From: a virus | Reading direction: 5' to 3' (one strand) | DNA: 27,247 nucleotides | IMG/VR virus record: IMGVR_UViG_3300010885_077322 | Span: 1 to 27,247 of that record | In this document: one piece after another, positions 2,444-27,247 of the stretch | Position numbering within the stretch: position 1 is the stretch's first letter | Layout of the letters: every line of letters starts with the position of its first letter | Made by a program: the position numbers and the translations under genes | Notes under the pieces: model-generated | Database searches by the model: none | Told to the model about the DNA's origin: nothing | Seen by the model: only the letters and a program-made list of their open reading frames with translations

Positions 2444-3856
2444 ATGGCAACTACACCTTCCAACACCAACCCATACTTTTTTTATGATGAACAAATTCGT
2501 CGTTTCCTACTGCAATTCACACGGATCTTTTCAAACTTTCAAGTTGAATACGGGCGCAACGAAGAAGGAACAGCACACACCCTAGTGCGAGTGCCAATTC
2601 GATACGGCGACTCCAGTCGACAAGTGCAAACTGTGATGCAGAACAACTCTGCAAACTTTATGACATCTGTTCCCATGATGAGTTTCTATGTGTCCGGATT
2701 TGATTACGACCGTCCTAGAATGCAAGAGCCGTATTTTGTAAACAACATTTCTGTGCGCCAGCGCACATATGATGACAATACTCAAACCTACGAAACAACA
2801 CAGGGCAATGCATTCACAATTGAACGGCTAATGCCAGTGCCATACAAACTCACTCTCAAGTTGGACATATGGACATCCAACACAAATCAGAAAATGCAAC
2901 TGCTGGAACAAATTGCTGTGCTGTTTAACCCAGCACTGGAAATACAAAGCACTGACAACTACATTGACTGGACCAGTTTGAGCATAGTACAGCTGGAGTC
3001 AACACAATGGAGCAGCCGATCAGTTCCCACTGGCACCGATGATGCTATTGATGTTGCAACAATGACATTTTCCTTGCCAATTTGGATCAGCAGTCCTGCC
3101 AAAGTTAAAAAGTTGGGTGTGGTCGAACGAATTATTTCTAACATACACGATGCCAACGGTGATGCTGCCAACGCTGTGGTAAACAATGATTTATTGCTGG
3201 GAACACGACTGGTGGTTACGCCATGGGATTATCAAACTTTGTTGATTGGTAATAAACTACAAGTATTGCGTCCCAGTGCTGTAGTTGATCAATCCAACGC
3301 AAGTTTGACACCACCTGACTCACCACCCAGCAATCTATTATGGACCGCATTGATTGGTGCATACGGAGTGCTGCGACCAGGCATTAGCCAGATATTTTTA
3401 GAACAACCAGACGGCACAGAAGTTGCCGGCACAGTGGCCTATGATCCCAGCGACGATCGCTTTATGCTGTTTACCATCGACGAAGACACCAAACCACAAA
3501 ATACTCTATCACCGGTGCGTTCGGTAATTGATCCGTTGCGCAGTGGGCCAGGCGCAGGGTTGCCGGCTGCGGTGGCGGGTCAGAGATACTTGCTGACCGA
3601 AAACACTGGCAGCGACAACGGCAATGCAGCAGCATGGACTGGCGCAACAGGACAACCATTGACGGCCAAAACAAATGACATCATTGAATACATCGACGGG
3701 CGTTGGCAAGTGGTGTTTGACAACACATCAAGTCCGGACAATACGCAATATGTCACCAACATCACCACAGCAATACAGTACAAGTGGACTGGCGCAACTT
3801 GGGTCAAAAGTTATCAAGGCCTGTATCCAGGCGGTCAATGGAGAATAGTACTTTGA
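2444..3856 (+). CDS. 15: Tail sheath stabiliser/terminator, T4 gp15-like, with C-terminal extension
   Basis: In T4, gp15 caps the contractile tail tube and sheath and joins them to the neck. Residues ~10-30 (PYFFYDEQIRRFLLQFTRIF) followed by SNFQVEYGR and LVRVPIRYGD, the central MTSVPMMSFYVSGFDYDR, and PVPYKLTLKLDIWT...LLEQIAVLFNPAL (residues 131-165) follow the order and spacing of T4 gp15 (YFYN..FRR, RVPITY, PRINLHLVDFSYN, PIKMIYELSIFTR, QIVEQILPYFQP). The protein is 470 aa against about 272 in T4. The extra C-terminal ~210 residues include a repetitive aromatic module (GQRYLLTEN, NDIIEYIDGRWQVVFD, QYKWTGATW, GGQWRIVL) suggestive of a surface or glycan-contacting domain, which is inference. 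It starts 6 nt after the gp14-like gene and its end overlaps the Nudix start by 19 nt. Confidence 0.88.
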   Translation: MATTPSNTNPYFFYDEQIRRFLLQFTRIFSNFQVEYGRNEEGTAHTLVRVPIRYGDSSRQVQTVMQNNSANFMTSVPMMSFYVSGFDYDRPRMQEPYFVNNISVRQRTYDDNTQTYETTQGNAFTIERLMPVPYKLTLKLDIWTSNTNQKMQLLEQIAVLFNPALEIQSTDNYIDWTSLSIVQLESTQWSSRSVPTGTDDAIDVATMTFSLPIWISSPAKVKKLGVVERIISNIHDANGDAANAVVNNDLLLGTRLVVTPWDYQTLLIGNKLQVLRPSAVVDQSNASLTPPDSPPSNLLWTALIGAYGVLRPGISQIFLEQPDGTEVAGTVAYDPSDDRFMLFTIDEDTKPQNTLSPVRSVIDPLRSGPGAGLPAAVAGQRYLLTENTGSDNGNAAAWTGATGQPLTAKTNDIIEYIDGRWQVVFDNTSSPDNTQYVTNITTAIQYKWTGATWVKSYQGLYPGGQWRIVL

Positions 3857-4278
3857 AGGCCGTAGGAGTTTGGTTTTACAGCATCAGCACACAGCGATAT
3901 CTATATCTCATGCGCAACGACACTCGGCATCCAGACTCGTGGGGCCTGCCTGGTGGCAAGATTGAAGAACACGAAACACTTATGCAAGCAATGGTTCGCG
4001 AGTGTGAAGAAGAATTGGGTTCAATGCCTGATTATATAAAGCTGGTTCCCATTGAGAAGTTTACCAGTGCAGATGGCGGGTTCGCTTATCACACATTTTT
4101 TTGCAGTGTTGCAGAAGAATTTGCGCCAACTCTCAACGACGAACACATTGGGTGGGCCTGGATTGCCAGTGGCACATGGCCTAGGCCCATGCATCCAGGA
4201 CTGTGGTCAACTGTGAATTTTGATGCTGTGCGCAACAAAATGGCCACAGTGGAACATGGCGTTCAAACGTCGCAGTAA
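3838..4278 (+). CDS. Nudix hydrolase
   Basis: Nudix enzymes hydrolyse nucleoside diphosphates linked to another group, for example oxidised or dinucleotide substrates. The Nudix box is at residues 40-62: GKIEEHE, seven residues, then RECEEELG, giving the G-x5-E-x7-RE-x2-EE-x-G pattern. Only the last hydrophobic position (Ser62) deviates. The box is preceded by the usual strand and loop (YLYLMRND, SWGLPGG). Length is 146 aa from ATG 3838. A start at 3784 would place 18 residues inside gp15, so I prefer 3838, which overlaps gp15 by 19 nt and suggests coupling. The substrate is not predictable from the sequence. Nudix genes occur in many T4-like phages, usually with nucleotide metabolism, so its place at the end of a structural run is slightly unusual. 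The 3' end overlaps the convergent 221-aa gene. Confidence 0.9.
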   Translation: MENSTLKAVGVWFYSISTQRYLYLMRNDTRHPDSWGLPGGKIEEHETLMQAMVRECEEELGSMPDYIKLVPIEKFTSADGGFAYHTFFCSVAEEFAPTLNDEHIGWAWIASGTWPRPMHPGLWSTVNFDAVRNKMATVEHGVQTSQ

Positions 4279-4928: not shown

Positions 4929-4970
4929 AATTGTTCCAAGTTTCTTTACATAGTTCAGTGTGTTGCAGTT

Positions 4971-5261
4971 TCAAAAGAAGGCCATAAATTGACCGTTGAT
5001 GGTTGACGGAAAATTCCATCCGGTATTATTACCTTCGTTAATATTTGTACCATTGGACGCATCCCAGTATGCGCCACCAGTGGCATTGCTGTCTCGAATA
5101 CTCAAATAGTTTGCAGTTACTGTGCCACTGGATTTTGACAAAGTAAACTGCACACCCGGAACCGAACTGTTGATTGTTACTAAATTTCCAGCGGAACCGG
5201 ACAAAGTAAAATTAGTTACTGTTGTGGTGGACCCAGCTTCGAATGTAATAGTTGATGCCAT
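4971..5261 (-). CDS. Small beta-rich structural protein, probable detached C-terminus of the 2183-aa protein
   Basis: This 96-aa protein begins MASTITFEAGSTTTVTNFTL and ends with DSNATGGAYWDASNGTN...NNTGWNF. From memory, the same pattern usually forms the C-terminal end of long phage proteins that open with MANRYWVGG. Here that N-terminal part is the separate upstream gene. The two genes are in the same reading frame, separated only by the stop TAA and nine bases containing an AAGGA ribosome site (TAA AGG AAT CAA ATG). It is therefore either a split-off C-terminal domain made as its own chain, or a subunit that assembles with the large protein. It shares no obvious motif with the following 221-aa gene, 42 nt downstream. 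Confidence 0.75.
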   Translation of the reverse strand: MASTITFEAGSTTTVTNFTLSGSAGNLVTINSSVPGVQFTLSKSSGTVTANYLSIRDSNATGGAYWDASNGTNINEGNNTGWNFPSTINGQFMAFF

Positions 5262-5273
5262 TTGATTCCTTTA
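5259..5273 (-). promoter_or_regulatory. Intercistronic ribosome-binding site splitting a giant protein
   Basis: Read on the minus strand, the stop codon TAA of the 2183-aa gene is followed by AGG AAT CAA and then ATG of the 96-aa gene. AAGGA is placed well for initiation, and a terminating ribosome would reload at once. An almost identical junction (TAAGGAATCAACATGGC) separates the genes at 26882 and 26872, with the same 9-nt gap. Confidence 0.7.
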
Positions 5274-8200
5274 AATTACCTGTATGTCTGCAAAGGTGTT
5301 TGAACCAGTGATAGTCAATGCTCCGGCACTGGATGTTGCTAGTTTACCGTACGAGCCGCCGCCGCCGGCAAATGTTTTTGGGGTTGCGTTTGTCAAATTG
5401 ATTGTGTAGTCGGAGCCAGTGAACCCTGTGCCATCCGGAACTGTCCACCCACTCGATACTGAAATTATACCAGTGCCGGAGCCAGATATTGCTCTTGTTG
5501 CAACTGAACTTGAAATAAAATTAGCAGTGGTGAGAGTGATTCCGGCTACATTTAATGTACCGCTGGTCAGTGTAGTGGCGCCTATTACTGATAATGCAGG
5601 TATTGTAGTAGTGCCTGAATGATTGACAGTCAATGCTGCAATAGTTTTGCCACTGCCGGTAATAGTACCAGTGCCAACCATTGTGGTTGTTAAACTAGAA
5701 AATACACCACTGGATGACATGGTCAAGCTGTTTAAATTTAACGAAGTTGCAGGAACAGTAAAATTTGTAGTCCCAAAATTCAATGTGTTGAACCAACTGC
5801 CACTGGTGAATGTTCCTACAGCAGTGCCGCTGGCAGTCAGTGTCAAGTTGGGTGCATTAGTAGTTGTGCCACCGGTAGTACCAAACAAATATGTTCTTGT
5901 CACTGCTGCATCAGCAGTGAATCCGCCGGTACCTGTCCAGGTGAAACCAGTTGCATCAGCCATTGACAATACTGTTTGAGCAGCAGTAGTATGTGCCAAT
6001 ACAATATTACCCAAGCCAAATGACACGGAGCGAGTAGCGGTGTTGGTTGAACTGAATTGGCCAGTGGTCAATGTAAATCCAGCCAGGTCTAACGTACCAT
6101 TGGTCAATGTTGCAGCAGCAGTGGTTGATGTACTGAGTGCTCCGGCCAAGGTTGTTGTGCCACTAGGACAGTTGACAGTCAATGCTGCAACAGTTTTACC
6201 ATTTGGCGTAATAGTGCCGGTACCCACCATTACAATTGTCAAGTTTGTATATGTAGCACCACTACTTAATGTCACGCTGTTTAAATTTAATGTAGTAGTC
6301 TGTCCAACGCTGCCAGTATGAATTCCAAAATCAAATATATTAAACCAACTACCGGTAGTGAAAGTATTATTGGCATTGGTACCTGCGCCACTAAATGTAA
6401 AGTTTGGTGCGTTGGTAGATGTGCCGCCTGCTGTGGAACCAAAATCAAAAGTGCGGGTACGGCCAACGTTAGGCTCAGTGACAAACCCTCCAGTGCCGGT
6501 CCAAGAGAAACCAGTGGCTGTTCCCATGTCAAGGGTTGTGCCGCTTGCGGTCATAGCAACAAGTATAATATTGTTGGATCCAAATGCCACAGAGCGAGTG
6601 GTTGTATTTGTTGAAGAAAATTGGGCACAAGTAAAATCAAACCCATTCAAAGCAAGTGTACCTGAAGTTAAGGTGAATGTGGCGGTGGTGACGGACATTG
6701 TCAATGCTGCGGCCAATGAAGTGGTACCTGATATGTTATCAACAGTCAAGTTGACTAGAGTAGTATTTCCGTTGCCATCGACAGTGCCAGTACCACGCAT
6801 GGTTGGTCTAAAAGAAGGATAGGTACCAGTGCTTGATAATTTTAAACTGTTCAAGTTTGTGATAACTGAACCAGGAGTAAAAGTAGAAGTACCAAAATCA
6901 AGAGTATTAAACCAACTGCCAGTGGTAAGAGTCGCTAGATTGCTGCCGGAAGTTATTGTCAGATTGGGTGCATTGGTAATAGATCCGCCGGCCGTGTTAC
7001 CAAATTGAAATATTTTTGCAAGATTTGTTGTTGCAACAAATCCACCAGTACCTGTCCAAGTGAAACCAGTGGCTGTTGACATTGCCAGCACAGTTGTTGA
7101 TGCTGTCGTATGTACCAATGAAATATTATTAGAACCAAATGCTACGGAGCGAGTATTACTATTACTTGAACTGAATATACCAAATGTTTGGTCAACACCA
7201 CCCAAGTCTAATGTACCAGCAGTTAGGAAGAAAGTTGATGTTACAGGATATGTTTGTGTGCCTTCTAATGTGAGTGTTACTCCTTCCGCACCAACACCAA
7301 TACCTCCTAATTGTTTGCTGAATTGTGGTGTCCATGTCTGTGTTCTAGTAAACACTGGTATGAAACCAGTATAGGTTCCACCTGAGGCCAATGTTAGGGT
7401 ATCAACATAGATGCCAATTGTAGATGCACTCATGGCTGGTGTGCTAGTAGTACCAGTAAAATTCAATACATCAAACCATGATCCATTGGTAAATGTTGGT
7501 ACAGCGGCACCACTTGTAATTGATAAGTTGGGTGCATTGGCAGCAGTGCCACCTGCGGTGCTGCCAAAAGTAAATGTTCTAGTAACAGACGCATCAGTTG
7601 TAAATCCACCAGTGCCTGTCCAAGAGAAACCAGTGGCTGTTGCCATTGATATTACGGTCTGTCCCACTGACGTATGAGTCAACGCAATATTACCTGAGCC
7701 AAATGCAATGGAACGAGTGTTTGCGTTGGTTGAACTGAATATACCAGTTGATAATGTAAAACCTGCTAGATTCAAGGCGCCACTTGTCAATGTAGTGGTA
7801 CCAGTTACTGCTGTACCAAATGCTCCAGCCAAGGTAGTGGTACCGGTATGGTTGATGGTAAATGCTGCAACAGTTTTACCATTTGGTGTGATAGTACCGG
7901 TACCAACCATTGTAACTGTCATGTTGCCATATGTACCAGTACTGCTGCACACTAAACTGTTTAAATTTAATGCGGTGGCCGCAATGTTGAATGTTGTGGT
8001 TCCAAAATCAAGAGTGTTGAACCATCCACCAGTAGTAAATATAGGTACTGCTGAACCAGTGGTTAGTGTCACATTGGGTGCGTTGGTTGAGGTACCACCG
8101 GTAGTACCAAAAGTAAATGTTCTAATGACTGCTGCACTGGCTGTAAAACCACCAGTGCCAGTCCAAGTAAACCCAGTGGCAGTGGCCATACTCAACACAG

Positions 8201-11200
8201 TTTGTGATGCTGTTGTATGTGCCAATACAATATTACTTGAACCAAATGTGATTGAACGGGTGCCGGTACCATCCGAACTGAATATGCCGGTGGTCAGTGT
8301 AAATCCTGCTAGGTTTAAGGTACCACTTGTCAGTGTAAAAGTTCCAGTAGCCGTCAAGGTTACTGCGGCTCCCAATGATGTAGTACCTGATGTACTATTA
8401 ATTACCATTGCTCCTAATGTTGTGTTTCCGTTAGTGATAACAGTGCCAGTGCCCACCATTGTGGCTGTCATGCTGGTATATGTGCCACCACTGCTTAGAG
8501 TCACACTGTTCAGATTTAAGTTAGTGGTACCTGTATTAAATGCAGTGGTACCAAAATCAAGTTTGTTAAACCACCCGCCACTGTTTACTGTTTGTACTGC
8601 TGTACCAGAACCAGTGAATGTTAAGTTAGGTGCATTAGTAGATGATGCGCCACCCGAGAGACCGAACGAATATAATCGCACGACTGATGCATCTGCTACA
8701 AATCCACCAGTGCCAGTCCAGGAGAAACCTTGAACCTGATTGCACGCCAGTACAGTTGTTGATGCTGTTGGGTGTGCCAACACAATGTTGTTACTACCAA
8801 ATGCGATTGATCGGGTGACCGTAGTAGCAACAGAACCACTGAATATACCAATAGTTAAATCATAGCCACCTAAATCTAATGTGCCGCCATATAAGTAACA
8901 AGTTGATGTTGCAGTATATGTTTGTGTGTTATCCAGTGTCAATGTGACACCTGCAACACCTACACCAATACCACCTAGTTGTTTACTGAATTGTGCAGTC
9001 CATGTTTGTGTACGAGTAAATATTGGTGCGAAACCGGTATAGGTTCCACCTGTGGCCAATGTCAGTGTGCTTACATACACTGCCGCAGATGCAGGAGTGC
9101 AAGTACTACCAGTAAAATTCAATGAGTTAAACCATGAAAAATTAGTAAATGTTGGTATTGAGGCACCACTTGTGATTGATAAGTTTGGTGCATTGGCAAT
9201 AGTACCACCTGCTGTAGAACCAAAAGTATATGTTCTAGTAATTGCAGCATCAGTTGTAAATCCACCTGTACCGGTCCAAGTGAAGTTAGTGGCTGTGGCC
9301 ACATTCAGCACAGTTGTTCCTGCTGTGGTGTGTGCTAATACAATATTACCAGTTCCAAATGCTACAGAACGAGTGGGTGAACCAGCAGGACTTGAACTGA
9401 ATTGGCCAGTGGTCAATGTAAATCCTGCTAGGTCTAGCGTACCACCGTTCAACACAGTACTGCTTGTTGCTGTTGTACCAAATGCCGCTGCCAGAGTAGT
9501 GGTGCCTGCATGGTCAACTGTGAATGTTCCAATAGTTTTACCATTTGGTGTAATTGTGCCAGTACCAACCATAGTTGCATTTATGTTAGTGTACGTACCG
9601 CTGGCGCTTAAAGTCAAACTGTTTAAATTTAAATTAGTAGATGCTACAGTAAAAGCAGTGGTACCAAAATCAAGTTTATTAAAATAACTGCTAGTGGTAA
9701 ATGTTTGTACTGCTGTGCCGCTGCCAGTTAGTGTCACGTTGGGTGCGTTGGTAGATGTGCCACCGACACCTGTGCCAAATTGAAATGATCTAGTAATTGC
9801 CGCTGACGCTGTAAACCCTCCTGTTCCCGTCCAAGAGAAACCAGTGGCTGTGGCCATTGATATTACGGTCGTTGCCGCTGTAGTGTGTGCCAATACAATG
9901 TTGTTGCTACCAAATGCAATTGAACGAGTGTTTGAATTGCTTGAACTTATTAATCCAAAAGTTTGGTCGAACCCACCTAAGTCTAGTGTACCAGCAGTTA
10001 ATATTAAACTTGATGTTGCAGTATATGTTTGTGTGTTGTCCAGTGTCAACGTCACACCCGTAACACCCACACCGATGCCGCCCAGTTGTTTACTGAATTG
10101 AGGAGTCCATGTTTGTGTACGAGTGAATACTGGTATAAAACCAGTATAGGTTCCACCTGTTGCCAGTGTCAGTGTATCGATATAGATACCAATTGTGGAT
10201 GTAGTCATGGCTGGTGTGCTAGTAGTACCAGTAAAATTTAATGCCTTAAACCATGATCCATTGGTAAAAGTGACAACTGCTGCACCGCTTGTGATTGACA
10301 AGTTAGGTGCATTAGTAGTTGTGCCACCAGTAGTACCAAAAGTAAATGTTCTAGTGATTGAAGCGTCAGTTGTAAATCCGCCTGTGCCGGTCCAAGAGAA
10401 ATTCGTGGCTATGGCCATTGACAGTACAGTTGTTGCTGCTGTTGTATGTGCCAATACAATGTTGTTACTACCAAATGCGATTGAACGAGCGGTTGAAGTA
10501 CTTGAACTGAATATTCCAGTTGTTAAATCAAATCCATTTAGATTTAATGTGCCGCCGTTTTGGTTATATGTACCTGTTGCAGTAAGCGCATATGCTTGGC
10601 CCAATGTTACAGTACCTGCGGTGTGCGTAAATGTGGGTACTGCACTCAGTGTACCACCATTGTAGTTAAATGCACCTGAGGTTAATACAAAACTTGTACT
10701 TGGTGTGATAGTACCATTTGTCATTGTGAAGGTACCAGTAACTGTCCAAGTAGTACAAGTTATAGTGCCTGTGTTTGTCAATGTACCTGCGGTGTAGAAT
10801 GCATTGCTTGAACATGTCAAATTAAATGTAGCAAAATCAACGGTGCCAGCAATTTGACTGTATGTGCTACACGCCAATGCTCCGGCTAAGGTAGTGGTGC
10901 CTGCATGATTAACATCAAAATTTGCAACAGTTTTACCATTTGGTGTAATTGTACCTGTACCAATCATGACGGCAGATAAGTTAGTATAGGTACCACCACT
11001 GGATAATGTTAAACTATTAAGACTCAATGATGTAGTTCCAGGAGTAAACGCAGTAGTGCCAAAATCAAGTTTGTTGAAACTACTGAAATTGGTGAATGTT
11101 GCTACAGCAGTACCACTGCCAGTCAGTGTCAAGTTGGGTGCATTGGTGGAAGTGCCGCCGGTAGTACCAAATGTAAATGTTCTAGTAACTGCGGCCGTAG

Positions 11201-11822
11201 CAGTAAATCCGCCGGTGCCAGTATATGTGAAATTGGTGGCTATGGCCATAGCCAATACTGTTTGAGCAGCAGTAGTGTGTGCTAATACAATATTACCTGA
11301 GCCAAACGCAATGGAACGAGTGTTTGCGTTAGTTGAACTGAATTGGCCGGTGGTTAATGTAAATCCGGCCAGGTCTAGCGTACCATTGGTCAATGTAGTG
11401 GTGGCAGTGGCCGTTAGAGTGAGAGAACTTCCTAATGTCCACGCACCTGCCGCACCGTTAAATGTAACTGCGCCGCTAAGGGCAACGCCATTGGTTGTTA
11501 CAGTTTTACCTGTTGTTGTAGCATTAAATGTTGTTGTGCCAGTGCTGTTCCATACAGTTCCCGCTACCAGTGACATACTGCCCGACACTGCAAGTGTAGG
11601 TGTAGTGCCTGTTGCAAAAGTGACTGTACCTGCTGATACTGTAATATCTAAACAAGTCAATGCACCTGTCATTGTAACAGTATATGTGGCTGCTTGGTCG
11701 AAAAATACCGAGTCGGCCGCAGTTGGTGCTGAAGCACCACTGGCACCACCACTAGTGGCACTCCAGTTTGTGGTACTAGTACTCCATGTTCCAGTACCTC
11801 CTACCCAGTATCTATTTGCCAT
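5271..11822 (-). CDS. Giant repeat-containing phage structural/adhesin protein, 2183 aa
   Basis: This is probably a long fibrous virion protein, fibre or surface adhesin. The N-terminus MANRYWVGGTGTW...NWSATSGG...PTAADSVFFD (residues 1-43) is a recurrent opening of very large proteins in aquatic phage genomes. The rest is almost entirely Thr/Gly/Ser/Ala/Asn and built from ten repeats of ~185 residues, each marked by TRS(I/V)AFGS.NIVLAHTT and then TGTGGFTADA. The composition and repeated short strands suggest beta-solenoid-like stacking, which is inference. There are no catalytic motifs and no signal peptide. It starts at ATG 11822, 3 nt after the stop of the 65-aa gene and with only a weak ribosome site, so it is probably coupled. 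It ends NTFADIQVI and the missing C-terminal domain is encoded in frame by the next gene. Long antisense open frames opposite it look like composition artefacts. Confidence 0.85.
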   Translation of the reverse strand: MANRYWVGGTGTWSTSTTNWSATSGGASGASAPTAADSVFFDQAATYTVTMTGALTCLDITVSAGTVTFATGTTPTLAVSGSMSLVAGTVWNSTGTTTFNATTTGKTVTTNGVALSGAVTFNGAAGAWTLGSSLTLTATATTTLTNGTLDLAGFTLTTGQFSSTNANTRSIAFGSGNIVLAHTTAAQTVLAMAIATNFTYTGTGGFTATAAVTRTFTFGTTGGTSTNAPNLTLTGSGTAVATFTNFSSFNKLDFGTTAFTPGTTSLSLNSLTLSSGGTYTNLSAVMIGTGTITPNGKTVANFDVNHAGTTTLAGALACSTYSQIAGTVDFATFNLTCSSNAFYTAGTLTNTGTITCTTWTVTGTFTMTNGTITPSTSFVLTSGAFNYNGGTLSAVPTFTHTAGTVTLGQAYALTATGTYNQNGGTLNLNGFDLTTGIFSSSTSTARSIAFGSNNIVLAHTTAATTVLSMAIATNFSWTGTGGFTTDASITRTFTFGTTGGTTTNAPNLSITSGAAVVTFTNGSWFKALNFTGTTSTPAMTTSTIGIYIDTLTLATGGTYTGFIPVFTRTQTWTPQFSKQLGGIGVGVTGVTLTLDNTQTYTATSSLILTAGTLDLGGFDQTFGLISSSNSNTRSIAFGSNNIVLAHTTAATTVISMATATGFSWTGTGGFTASAAITRSFQFGTGVGGTSTNAPNVTLTGSGTAVQTFTTSSYFNKLDFGTTAFTVASTNLNLNSLTLSASGTYTNINATMVGTGTITPNGKTIGTFTVDHAGTTTLAAAFGTTATSSTVLNGGTLDLAGFTLTTGQFSSSPAGSPTRSVAFGTGNIVLAHTTAGTTVLNVATATNFTWTGTGGFTTDAAITRTYTFGSTAGGTIANAPNLSITSGASIPTFTNFSWFNSLNFTGSTCTPASAAVYVSTLTLATGGTYTGFAPIFTRTQTWTAQFSKQLGGIGVGVAGVTLTLDNTQTYTATSTCYLYGGTLDLGGYDLTIGIFSGSVATTVTRSIAFGSNNIVLAHPTASTTVLACNQVQGFSWTGTGGFVADASVVRLYSFGLSGGASSTNAPNLTFTGSGTAVQTVNSGGWFNKLDFGTTAFNTGTTNLNLNSVTLSSGGTYTSMTATMVGTGTVITNGNTTLGAMVINSTSGTTSLGAAVTLTATGTFTLTSGTLNLAGFTLTTGIFSSDGTGTRSITFGSSNIVLAHTTASQTVLSMATATGFTWTGTGGFTASAAVIRTFTFGTTGGTSTNAPNVTLTTGSAVPIFTTGGWFNTLDFGTTTFNIAATALNLNSLVCSSTGTYGNMTVTMVGTGTITPNGKTVAAFTINHTGTTTLAGAFGTAVTGTTTLTSGALNLAGFTLSTGIFSSTNANTRSIAFGSGNIALTHTSVGQTVISMATATGFSWTGTGGFTTDASVTRTFTFGSTAGGTAANAPNLSITSGAAVPTFTNGSWFDVLNFTGTTSTPAMSASTIGIYVDTLTLASGGTYTGFIPVFTRTQTWTPQFSKQLGGIGVGAEGVTLTLEGTQTYPVTSTFFLTAGTLDLGGVDQTFGIFSSSNSNTRSVAFGSNNISLVHTTASTTVLAMSTATGFTWTGTGGFVATTNLAKIFQFGNTAGGSITNAPNLTITSGSNLATLTTGSWFNTLDFGTSTFTPGSVITNLNSLKLSSTGTYPSFRPTMRGTGTVDGNGNTTLVNLTVDNISGTTSLAAALTMSVTTATFTLTSGTLALNGFDFTCAQFSSTNTTTRSVAFGSNNIILVAMTASGTTLDMGTATGFSWTGTGGFVTEPNVGRTRTFDFGSTAGGTSTNAPNFTFSGAGTNANNTFTTGSWFNIFDFGIHTGSVGQTTTLNLNSVTLSSGATYTNLTIVMVGTGTITPNGKTVAALTVNCPSGTTTLAGALSTSTTAAATLTNGTLDLAGFTLTTGQFSSTNTATRSVSFGLGNIVLAHTTAAQTVLSMADATGFTWTGTGGFTADAAVTRTYLFGTTGGTTTNAPNLTLTASGTAVGTFTSGSWFNTLNFGTTNFTVPATSLNLNSLTMSSSGVFSSLTTTMVGTGTITGSGKTIAALTVNHSGTTTIPALSVIGATTLTSGTLNVAGITLTTANFISSSVATRAISGSGTGIISVSSGWTVPDGTGFTGSDYTINLTNATPKTFAGGGGSYGKLATSSAGALTITGSNTFADIQVI
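5990..11340 (-). repeat. Ten tandem ~555-nt coding repeats (two subtypes)
   Basis: Markers of the TRS.AFGS motif fall near 6030, 6596, 7147, 7710, 8255, 8815, 9370, 9923, 10484 and 11310. Spacing is 545-566 nt except the first interval (~826 nt), which contains extra shorter repeats. Seven units end in type A (FDFGTT...MVGTGTITPNGKT). Three (units 2, 4 and 7 from the N-terminus) end in type B (LNFTGTT...RTQTW..QFSKQLGGIGVG). A degenerate eleventh partial unit precedes the C-terminus. Type B copies near 7230-7480, 8900-9130 and 10010-10250 are still close at DNA level, so some duplications are recent. Confidence 0.85.
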
Positions 11823-11825
11823 ATT

Positions 11826-12023
11826 TTATTCTGTCGGTGCTGCATTGACAATGGCCAACCAATTGTCAAATCTTTCTTGTTTCATTGCGTCAATGGTGGC
11901 AGCAGGTGTTGCGGCATATTCTTCCTGTGTCATCCACAATGCATCACGGAAGGTTCTGCCACTGTCACTTTTTTCAAAAATCACTTGTACTTTTCCGTCA
12001 ATTTGATTGATAATATCTTCCAT
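11826..12023 (-). CDS. Small acidic fibre-locus protein, 65 aa
   Basis: I recognise no named family. The protein runs MEDIINQIDGKVQVIFEKSD, then SGRTFRDALWMTQEEYAA, then helical residues to the C-terminus (IDAMKQERFDNWLAIVNAAP). It has an acidic, helix-rich make-up unlike its Thr/Gly-rich neighbours. Small proteins of this kind (DALWMT.EEY..) sit among fibre genes in many phages and may help fibre assembly, but that is inference from position. ATG 12023 has GAAAG a few bases upstream. Its stop is 3 nt before the start of the 2183-aa gene, so the two are probably translated together. Confidence 0.75.
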   Translation of the reverse strand: MEDIINQIDGKVQVIFEKSDSGRTFRDALWMTQEEYAATPAATIDAMKQERFDNWLAIVNAAPTE

Positions 12024-12042
12024 ATTGTTCTTTCATTAATTG

Positions 12043-12978
12043 TTAAAAACCAAAATTCTTGGCCAATAATTGCCATTTTGTAGCTGTTGTGTTGTATATA
12101 AATCCAACATAATCATATTTATTACTGCCAGTTGATGCTGTGGGCAATATCAAATCAGTTGATCCAACAAACACAGCATTCCAACTAAATGTCTGTATGT
12201 TTGCAGATTGCAATCTAAGTATAATTTTCTGTCCATTGAACAATGTTCCAGTCACTGCATTGATTGTCAATGTACCAGCGGCTTGAGTGTTTGTCTGTGT
12301 TGCTATGTCAGTGGTATCACCATTCATGGTGATTGAAACGCCGTCCGCAATGGATACTACTCTGGGCAGAACTGCACCACTGGCAGCAATGGTACCAGTC
12401 ACTGATACACTGCCGGAACTGATAACTTGACCAGTGCCATTTGGAGACAGCGTGATATTTCCGTTACTGCCAGTGATGATGCTCAGCGCACCTGTATCAA
12501 CAATATTGCCTGAGACATTCAAGTTGCCGGCTGAGATGTTGCCAGTGGCACTGACAATGCCCGGTAATATCAATCCAGTTGATGCAAATGTTGCCACTGT
12601 GGTACCAGCAACACCAACTGTGGTATTGGCACCAGATGCAACTGTGACATTACTTGTTCCATTGGTGATTGCAGACCCGCCTGCAGAAATACCAGTGAGA
12701 GCCGATCCATTTCCAATGAAATAATTGCCAGACACATTGCCAGTAGCCGTGACAATTCCAACTGTGACAACATTGCCAACTGTTATATTGCCGGTAACTG
12801 ATGCTAGACCCGTGGCCAACAGATTGCCGCTGTTGACTGTGCCAGTTACGCTGATGCTGACAAAAGAGTTGCTGACAGAAGTACTAACTGTCCATGCAGT
12901 CAAAGTACTGCTGTAGGTATAGGTTATGCCATTTATACTTGCTTGCTGTCCATTGGTTGGTGATAGTGGAAATGACAT
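12043..12978 (-). CDS. Tail fibre-like protein with GN/ATG repeats, 311 aa
   Basis: This is a probable fibre or adhesin subunit. The N-terminus MSFPLSPTNGQQASINGITY...AWTV (residues ~1-30) is a small domain common in phage structural proteins. The middle has short Gly/Asn-rich repeats (TGNITVGNVVTVGIVTATGN) and the motif VSGNYFIGNGSALTGI, shared with the 683-aa protein. The C-terminal ~85 residues (TLTINAVTGTLFNGQKIILR, QTFSWNAVFVGSTDLILPTA, YDYVGFIYNT, KWQLLAKNFGF) look like a compact beta-sandwich tip that recurs in unrelated phage fibres. It overlaps the upstream 683-aa gene by one base (TAATG) and has GGGAG upstream, so translation is coupled. The 65-aa gene follows 19 nt later. Confidence 0.8.
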   Translation of the reverse strand: MSFPLSPTNGQQASINGITYTYSSTLTAWTVSTSVSNSFVSISVTGTVNSGNLLATGLASVTGNITVGNVVTVGIVTATGNVSGNYFIGNGSALTGISAGGSAITNGTSNVTVASGANTTVGVAGTTVATFASTGLILPGIVSATGNISAGNLNVSGNIVDTGALSIITGSNGNITLSPNGTGQVISSGSVSVTGTIAASGAVLPRVVSIADGVSITMNGDTTDIATQTNTQAAGTLTINAVTGTLFNGQKIILRLQSANIQTFSWNAVFVGSTDLILPTASTGSNKYDYVGFIYNTTATKWQLLAKNFGF

Positions 12979-26554: not shown

Positions 26555-26872
26555 TTACACAGCGATTGAGCTCACTGTCACAGTGACACAATCTGCTACA
26601 CTGGCTTCTACTTCGACCAAATCACCGTTGTCAAGTATGAGTTTTTCCAATGATATAACATATGTTTCGTTTGCTGTGAGTTCCAGTGACGAATATACCA
26701 TATTGCTGAAAGCAGCGCCTGTACTGTCAGAACTGTCAATCACAAACACATCTATCAAGCAAGTGGTTGAAGTTGTGTTACAAAAATACATTACCGTGAT
26801 AGCTTGTTGTCCTGACGCTGCAAATACAGTGGTTGGGTTGGTGTTATCTAACCGAGTGTTGGTGATTGCCAT
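26555..26872 (-). CDS. Small conserved phage structural protein, 105 aa
   Basis: The protein is beta-rich (MAITNTRLDNTNPTTVFAAS, QAITVMYFCNTTS, LIDVFVIDSS, ETYVISLEKLILDNGDLVEV, VTVTVSSIAV). Similar ~100-residue proteins occur beside fibre genes in T4-like phages of aquatic bacteria. The Ig-like strand pattern with a LEKLILDNGD hairpin near residue 75-84 is typical of that type. Function is unknown; it could be a decoration or fibre-base subunit. ATG 26872 follows the upstream stop by 9 nt with AAGGA overlapping that stop (TAAGGAATCAACATG). Confidence 0.75.
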   Translation of the reverse strand: MAITNTRLDNTNPTTVFAASGQQAITVMYFCNTTSTTCLIDVFVIDSSDSTGAAFSNMVYSSLELTANETYVISLEKLILDNGDLVEVEASVADCVTVTVSSIAV

Positions 26873-26881
26873 GTTGATTCC

Positions 26882-27247
26882 TTAAAATATGATGCCAAAT
26901 ACAATTGCTTTGGTTTTGCTAACCAGTTCATCGTTGACTGCGGAACTTATGACATAAACGCCTGTGCCGCCAGATCCAACTTGTTTGTTGTACAGTGCTG
27001 CTACATTTGATGTTGTAGCCGGTGTTGATACTATGTTGGCCAACACCAATTGTCCTGTTATGTTTACTTTGGCATTTCCTGCATCAAATGTAAAGGCTGA
27101 GTTGCCTGTGAATGCGCCTGCTCCGTTGAACTGTACTGAATTAGCCGGAGCGCCTGGAGATGTTCCAGCGCCGGATGCGATAGTTGTATATGCTGTTATC
27201 GGAGCACCGTTTGCTGCAACCGCAGGACTAATTTCCCAATCACCTGA
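26882..27247 (-). CDS. Structural/fibre protein, C-terminal 121 residues only (cut by window edge)
   Basis: The leftward frame is open from base 27247 and stops with TAA at 26884-26882. The visible part has a fibre-like segment (GAPANSVQFNGAGAFTGNSA, FTFDAGNAKVNITGQLVLAN), then LYNKQVGSGGTGVYVISS and a terminal VNDELVSKTKAIVFGIIF. The ending type (DEL.SK.KAIV.G.IF) is familiar from aquatic T4-like phage structural proteins. Its stop overlaps the ribosome site of the 105-aa gene. The N-terminus lies outside the window, so the function is not assigned beyond a fibre-type virion protein. Confidence 0.75.
   Translation of the reverse strand, partial: SGDWEISPAVAANGAPITAYTTIASGAGTSPGAPANSVQFNGAGAFTGNSAFTFDAGNAKVNITGQLVLANIVSTPATTSNVAALYNKQVGSGGTGVYVISSAVNDELVSKTKAIVFGIIF

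Follow-up and report, generated by a model that had tools for sequence, protein, structure and literature searches.

Probable stable fission of a phage tail-adhesin gene, with a 96-residue beta-solenoid module that may cap the giant protein in trans

The window considered here, a virus record of 27,247 bases from a large virus of bacteria, encodes a giant protein of 2183 amino acids and, nine nucleotides downstream and in the same reading frame, a protein of 96 amino acids. This raises the question of whether the pair represents a broken gene, a single protein made by read-through or two genes in their own right and, if the latter, what the small protein does. Re-reading of the coordinates bore out the description given in the earlier note, in that only a TAA and nine nucleotides precede the new ATG (Table 1). 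Neighbouring genes will share a frame by chance in one case out of three; the pair nevertheless stands above chance because the 96 residues align end to end with a module that 123 other distinct copies carry in fused form. By this alignment the small protein is the module with which beta-solenoid phage proteins of the YWVGG type end, as the earlier note had proposed from its resemblance to the C-terminal domain of such giants.

Table 1. Positions of the main features, numbered along the window.
Feature	Position	Strand	Remarks
Tail-sheath/sheath-stabiliser homologue	2444-3856		Flank
Four-gene fibre block (311-aa, 65-aa, giant, module)	4940-12977	(-)	Missing in three close relatives whose flanks match
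96-aa separate gene, terminal beta-solenoid module	4971-5261	(-)	Start ATG at 5259-5261
Nine-nucleotide gap AGGAATCAA	5262-5270	(-)	Between the TAA of the giant and the ATG of the small gene
Shine-Dalgarno AAAGGA	5267-5272	(-)	Gap bases plus the last two bases of the giant's stop
2183-aa ORF (giant)	5271-11822	(-)	Ends in TAA at 5271-5273; contig L001 has the same stop
Terminal coil of the giant (KTFAGGGGSYGKL...GALTITGSNTFADIQVI)	5274-5378	(-)	From alignment; adjoins the module directly in fused relatives
N-terminal MANRYWVGGTGTW domain of the giant	11550-11822	(-)	Homologues in most fused loci
65-aa gene	11826-12023	(-)	Members of its family regularly precede YWVGG giants, whether fused or split
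311-aa fibre-like protein ending LLAKNFGF	12043-12978	(-)	First gene of the block

The giant is a threonine- and glycine-rich beta-solenoid repeat protein with a repeat of approximately 185 residues, in which NAPN occurs ten times, and it is regarded as a putative tail adhesin shaft. Its N-terminal (M)xxYWVGGTGxW domain shares 67-79% identity with those of L003, L018, L022, L045 and L053. A scan with its terminal coil confirmed no relatives, most likely owing to low complexity, since the coil is evidently present in L001 and L003 as well. Both the terminal coil and the C-terminal STITFxAG...GWxF...FFxFF module are present in the window, on two polypeptides; in proteins of the YWVGG type the module usually, if not universally, lies in the same chain as the shaft, which is not so here. 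The 96-aa protein contains 11.5% glycine, with no run of three, and two tryptophans. Its aromatic C-terminal tail (GQFMAFF, 4974-4994; GNFFLFF and GEFFAFF in homologues) is kept in many modules, fused and separate. Pfam and PHROGs contained no family for this protein at an E value of 0.01, nor any convincing one. Searches of cultured phages by tblastn with the module and by blastn with the region gave no match, although the low-complexity filter of BLAST may hide some, and a relative was confirmed in none of the bacterial genomes searched.

The position of the division can be read from the alignment. Fused relatives read GSNxFADIQATTRPSTITFTAG across the border, whereas the window reads GSNTFADIQVI, a stop, RNQ and then MASTITFEAG; the split therefore falls precisely at the border of terminal coil and module. 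Compared with the fused genes, the junction has three additional codons, thus it is not a point stop, and these codons include the ribosome site. In L001, which is another metagenome contig, the genes are split at the same point by bases of its own (TAA GGT AAT AAA ATG). The Shine-Dalgarno site of the small gene pairs with the anti-Shine-Dalgarno at -5.6 kcal/mol, as against +0.2 for the giant's own site, and because the former is stronger, surplus copies of the cap could possibly be made. Reassignment of the stop codon was considered and rejected, TAA being the codon which ends most genes of the window. The earlier note had also likened the junction to that at 26872-26884, where TAA GGAATCAAC ATG again leaves nine nucleotides. 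The likeness exists but carries no special meaning, as the part common to both is a ribosome-binding site overlapping the stop (TAAGGAA at 26872) and the second junction is a normal border between genes, which 12 relatives of the 105-aa gene retain, the gap measuring 8, 9 or 12 nucleotides. A split event of the same kind at 26872 was rejected on finding this normal boundary in 12 relatives of this phage group.

Successive scans of viral contigs yielded 57, 51 and 80 relatives. A profile was run over all fetched loci and distinct copies with a complete start were counted, some contigs and multi-module proteins supplying more than one. The module was fused inside a long open frame in 123 of 134 copies and formed a gene of its own in 11, the window included, so that homologues are indeed fused elsewhere and the module is not always separate. 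Four of the separate copies (the window, L001, L025 and L109) lie in the frame of the upstream gene and seven in a different one. Such sharing of frame speaks in favour of a programmed read-through of the TAA, giving a minor fused product of approximately 2283 residues as the earlier note had allowed. However, with the frame differing in 7/11 copies, two stops in a row (TAA TAG) ending the upstream gene of L025, three extra codons in the junction of the window and TAA as the usual stop here, read-through is very unlikely. The eight separate copies that either lie in another frame or follow a double stop argue against decay and error as well. A TAAAGGAAT-type ribosome site is common to the window, L101 and L109 and similar sites were found in L001, L094, L096 and L098, making 7/11 Shine-Dalgarno-like, whilst those of L002, L059, L025 and L051 are weak. 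Immediately upstream of each of the 11 separate copies is an ORF which, where the contig holds enough of it, has solenoid repeats and/or a glycine-rich tip. Given this placement, and the fusion of the same module to such giants elsewhere, it is improbable that the small gene, though expressed, acts at another site on the virion, unrelated to the giant.

ORFs in frame and only nine bases apart are also what a recent nonsense mutation or a sequencing error would leave, the 96-aa ORF then being a remnant. This is scarcely credible when the independent contig L001 is split alike although its module has only 79% nucleotide identity to that of the window (21% of bases differ; dN 0.11, dS approximately 0.8-1.1), and when there are ten separate copies besides the window, a Shine-Dalgarno site and purifying selection, with dN/dS at 0.10-0.18 over the window-L001 and L002-L059 pairs (0.15-0.18 for the latter). 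The view that this is a real gene junction, and not a decayed stop or an error in the reads, is thus upheld. On comparative sequence grounds, the split is an old and maintained gene division, placed at a border where domains can be swapped, rather than a broken gene.

In a tree of the modules (93 rows, 96 columns, with many unresolved forks) the separate copies were nested among the fused ones; placing the ten tested separate copies in a single clade was not rejected (AU p value of 0.73) and gave a tree of higher likelihood, so that they fit one lineage. As the separate copies are nested in this way, and modules also occur internally in multi-unit proteins, the fused state is most likely ancestral; fission most likely took place once or a few times.

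When modelled alone by AlphaFold2, the module is a small all-beta solenoid (pLDDT 87.1, pTM 0.73). The C-terminus that read-through would produce is likewise predicted to be all-beta, with strands that continue over the split (pLDDT 91.7, pTM 0.87), and may be read as one continuous solenoid, in a model which joins both halves in one chain by construction. Comparison of the C-terminal 260 residues with A0A6J5QXQ6 of the BFVD gave a Foldseek E value of 1.8e-14, a TMq of 0.86 and 46% identity. Fold matches of the module in the PDB were weak, the best (Z 6.1) being to a beta-helix alginate lyase and those to SV2 luminal domains lying near Z 5; they suggest only a short parallel beta-solenoid, and no enzyme activity is inferred from them.

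The fused and separate copies were also compared for what surrounds the module. The upstream giant ends in a glycine-rich segment in 9/11 separate cases, the exceptions being the window and L001, whereas none of the 123 fused copies has a glycine-rich stretch in the 150 residues before the module and four have one after it. The segment was assigned by Pfam to Gly_rich_2 (PF21722) in L002, L062 and L051, in each of which the cassette comes after the GSNxFxD coil, where the giant of the window stops; in L002 it is preceded by three LamG domains. These counts should be considered with caution, as the separate copies are related to one another: the cassette-with-split pattern is largely the habit of one lineage and not eleven independent events, and the Fisher value for cassette against separate gene is for that reason not used as a probability. 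What emerges is a repeatable anatomical rule in environmental phages, namely that where the terminal module is separate the split point usually holds a tip cassette. The separate module of L051 (1022-2146) is itself interrupted, after approximately 34 residues, by a glycine-rich domain of approximately 240 residues, so a large insert is tolerated.

The reading we favour, with a probability of roughly 0.6, is that the gene of a phage tail adhesin has undergone a stable fission, the 96-aa module most likely capping the giant solenoid in trans. A single-chain YWVGG beta-solenoid fibre would have been divided between the terminal coil and the last module, each half having its own stop and start, with the small gene's ribosome site reaching into the giant's stop codon. 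Ribosomes could restart at this overlap and so make the module as a separate subunit, which would most likely dock at the open end of the solenoid formed by the giant and cap it, the C-terminus of the giant thereby being left free for exchangeable glycine-rich or LamG tip cassettes. We infer the docking, the capping, the position on the virion and host recognition. Capping in trans fits the finding of one module per record, fused or separate, in all eight of the virus records first tested (that of L051 being in two pieces), and would explain how a tip cassette can follow the coil when the cap comes from a gene of its own. Against it, the cap in the cassette-bearing relatives would have to dock beside a long continuing chain.

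Small genes immediately after fibre genes often encode adhesins or chaperones, and the 96-aa protein, standing in just such a place, could instead act on its own as an assembly factor or tip protein, in the manner of gp38 or of a chaperone, and no longer complete the solenoid of the giant. The glycine-rich insert in the separate protein of L051 may be compared with the polyglycine domain of gp38 on a beta-helix (PMC6851490). However, in sequence and predicted fold the module is still that of the fused proteins, down to its first strand beside the giant; no gp38 or chaperone family was matched and the model is without a helical attachment domain. We therefore regard such a factor as unlikely, if still deserving of attention, and return to capping in trans. 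Its furthest extension is that of a natural split solenoid, in which the last coils are supplied in trans, the shaft is capped and the C-terminus swaps tips, the split serving as an evolutionary device for the exchange of host-recognition tips; this is put forward tentatively, as a possibility that we would not yet favour. If the cap does act in trans, it would explain how tips are gained and lost on very long single-chain fibres without rebuilding, and would provide a two-part system open to test with purified proteins.

The genomic setting bears on how the split adhesin came to be here. The flanks of the window carry T4-type myophage genes, and the best full-length cultured matches of the sheath homologue are to Sinorhizobium, Agrobacterium and Pseudomonas jumbo phages, at 34-35% identity. 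A NUDIX-like ORF at 3784-4278 (GLPGGKIEEHETLMQAMVRECEEELG) overlaps the end of this gene, and in some cultured jumbo phages the match of the sheath homologue falls on a MutT/NUDIX annotation. Near-identical relatives were found by a scan with the 105-aa protein encoded at 26555-26872, one of them a contig of 340,172 bases. Three relatives, on contigs of 340 kb, 56 kb and 17 kb, match the window to approximately base 4939 (91%, 90% and 78% DNA identity for G013, G010 and G016) and once more in fibre genes past the block, without the bases 4940-12977 and without the module; in G013 and G010 a fibre gene continues directly into a homologue of the 221-aa gene. Because near-identical relatives lack the whole block, an 8-kb fibre cassette probably brought the split adhesin in, the alternative being loss of the block in all three. 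The acquired junction suggested in the earlier note thus holds in another sense, the acquisition being that of the block. The same four-gene order is found in L062, a contig of 159.7 kb, which shares with the window 78% identity in the C-terminus of the 311-aa protein and approximately 70% in the module but only 29% in the sheath-stabiliser homologue. The block appears to move as a unit between distant large myophages and is a candidate unit of host-range exchange. Elsewhere in the window, an ORF at 424-1110 contains an HNH-like stretch (HHIMPKCLGGNNDSSNLVELT) and bases 447-1123 are replaced by approximately 17 bases in the 340-kb relative; the region 424-1123 looks like a homing-endonuclease insertion.

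Two-part fibres are already known, and the pair in the window can be set against them. The YWVGG-type proteins of uncultured Caudovirales (e.g., A0A6J5QXQ6 and A0A6J7X413) share fold and sequence with its C-terminal 260 residues; in the A0A6J5QXQ6 type the match lies within a single long protein, whereas in the window the last 96 residues are a separate gene. In the T-even phage S16, gp38 is encoded by a separate gene, caps the end of the gp37 fibre and has a glycine-rich tip (PMC6851490), and the small gene of the window similarly lies directly downstream of a giant fibre gene. However, the polyglycine II domain of gp38 is in the small protein, where the window has none and where, among the separate copies, only L051 has one; in the cassette-bearing relatives the glycine-rich part is otherwise on the giant. 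Furthermore, gp38 has an N-terminal helical attachment domain with three tryptophans, as opposed to an all-beta model and two tryptophans for the module, to which it has no sequence relation, and the giant of the window is a solenoid repeat protein. In phage DT57C the two adjacent lateral-fibre genes LtfA and LtfB replace the single Ltf of T5, and a fused derivative has arisen in the laboratory (PMC4728585; structure in PMC10713586). The window too has two adjacent genes where its relatives have one, but LtfB, which has a chaperone domain of its own, forms a second fibre that binds a receptor, whereas the small protein here is a split-off terminal module. The C-terminal chaperone domain present in both Ltf proteins was found by Pfam in neither the giant nor the 96-aa protein. 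The pair thus resembles gp37/gp38 and LtfA/LtfB in outline and is a member of neither; what is new is that a terminal solenoid module has been split off and that this is linked to tip cassettes.
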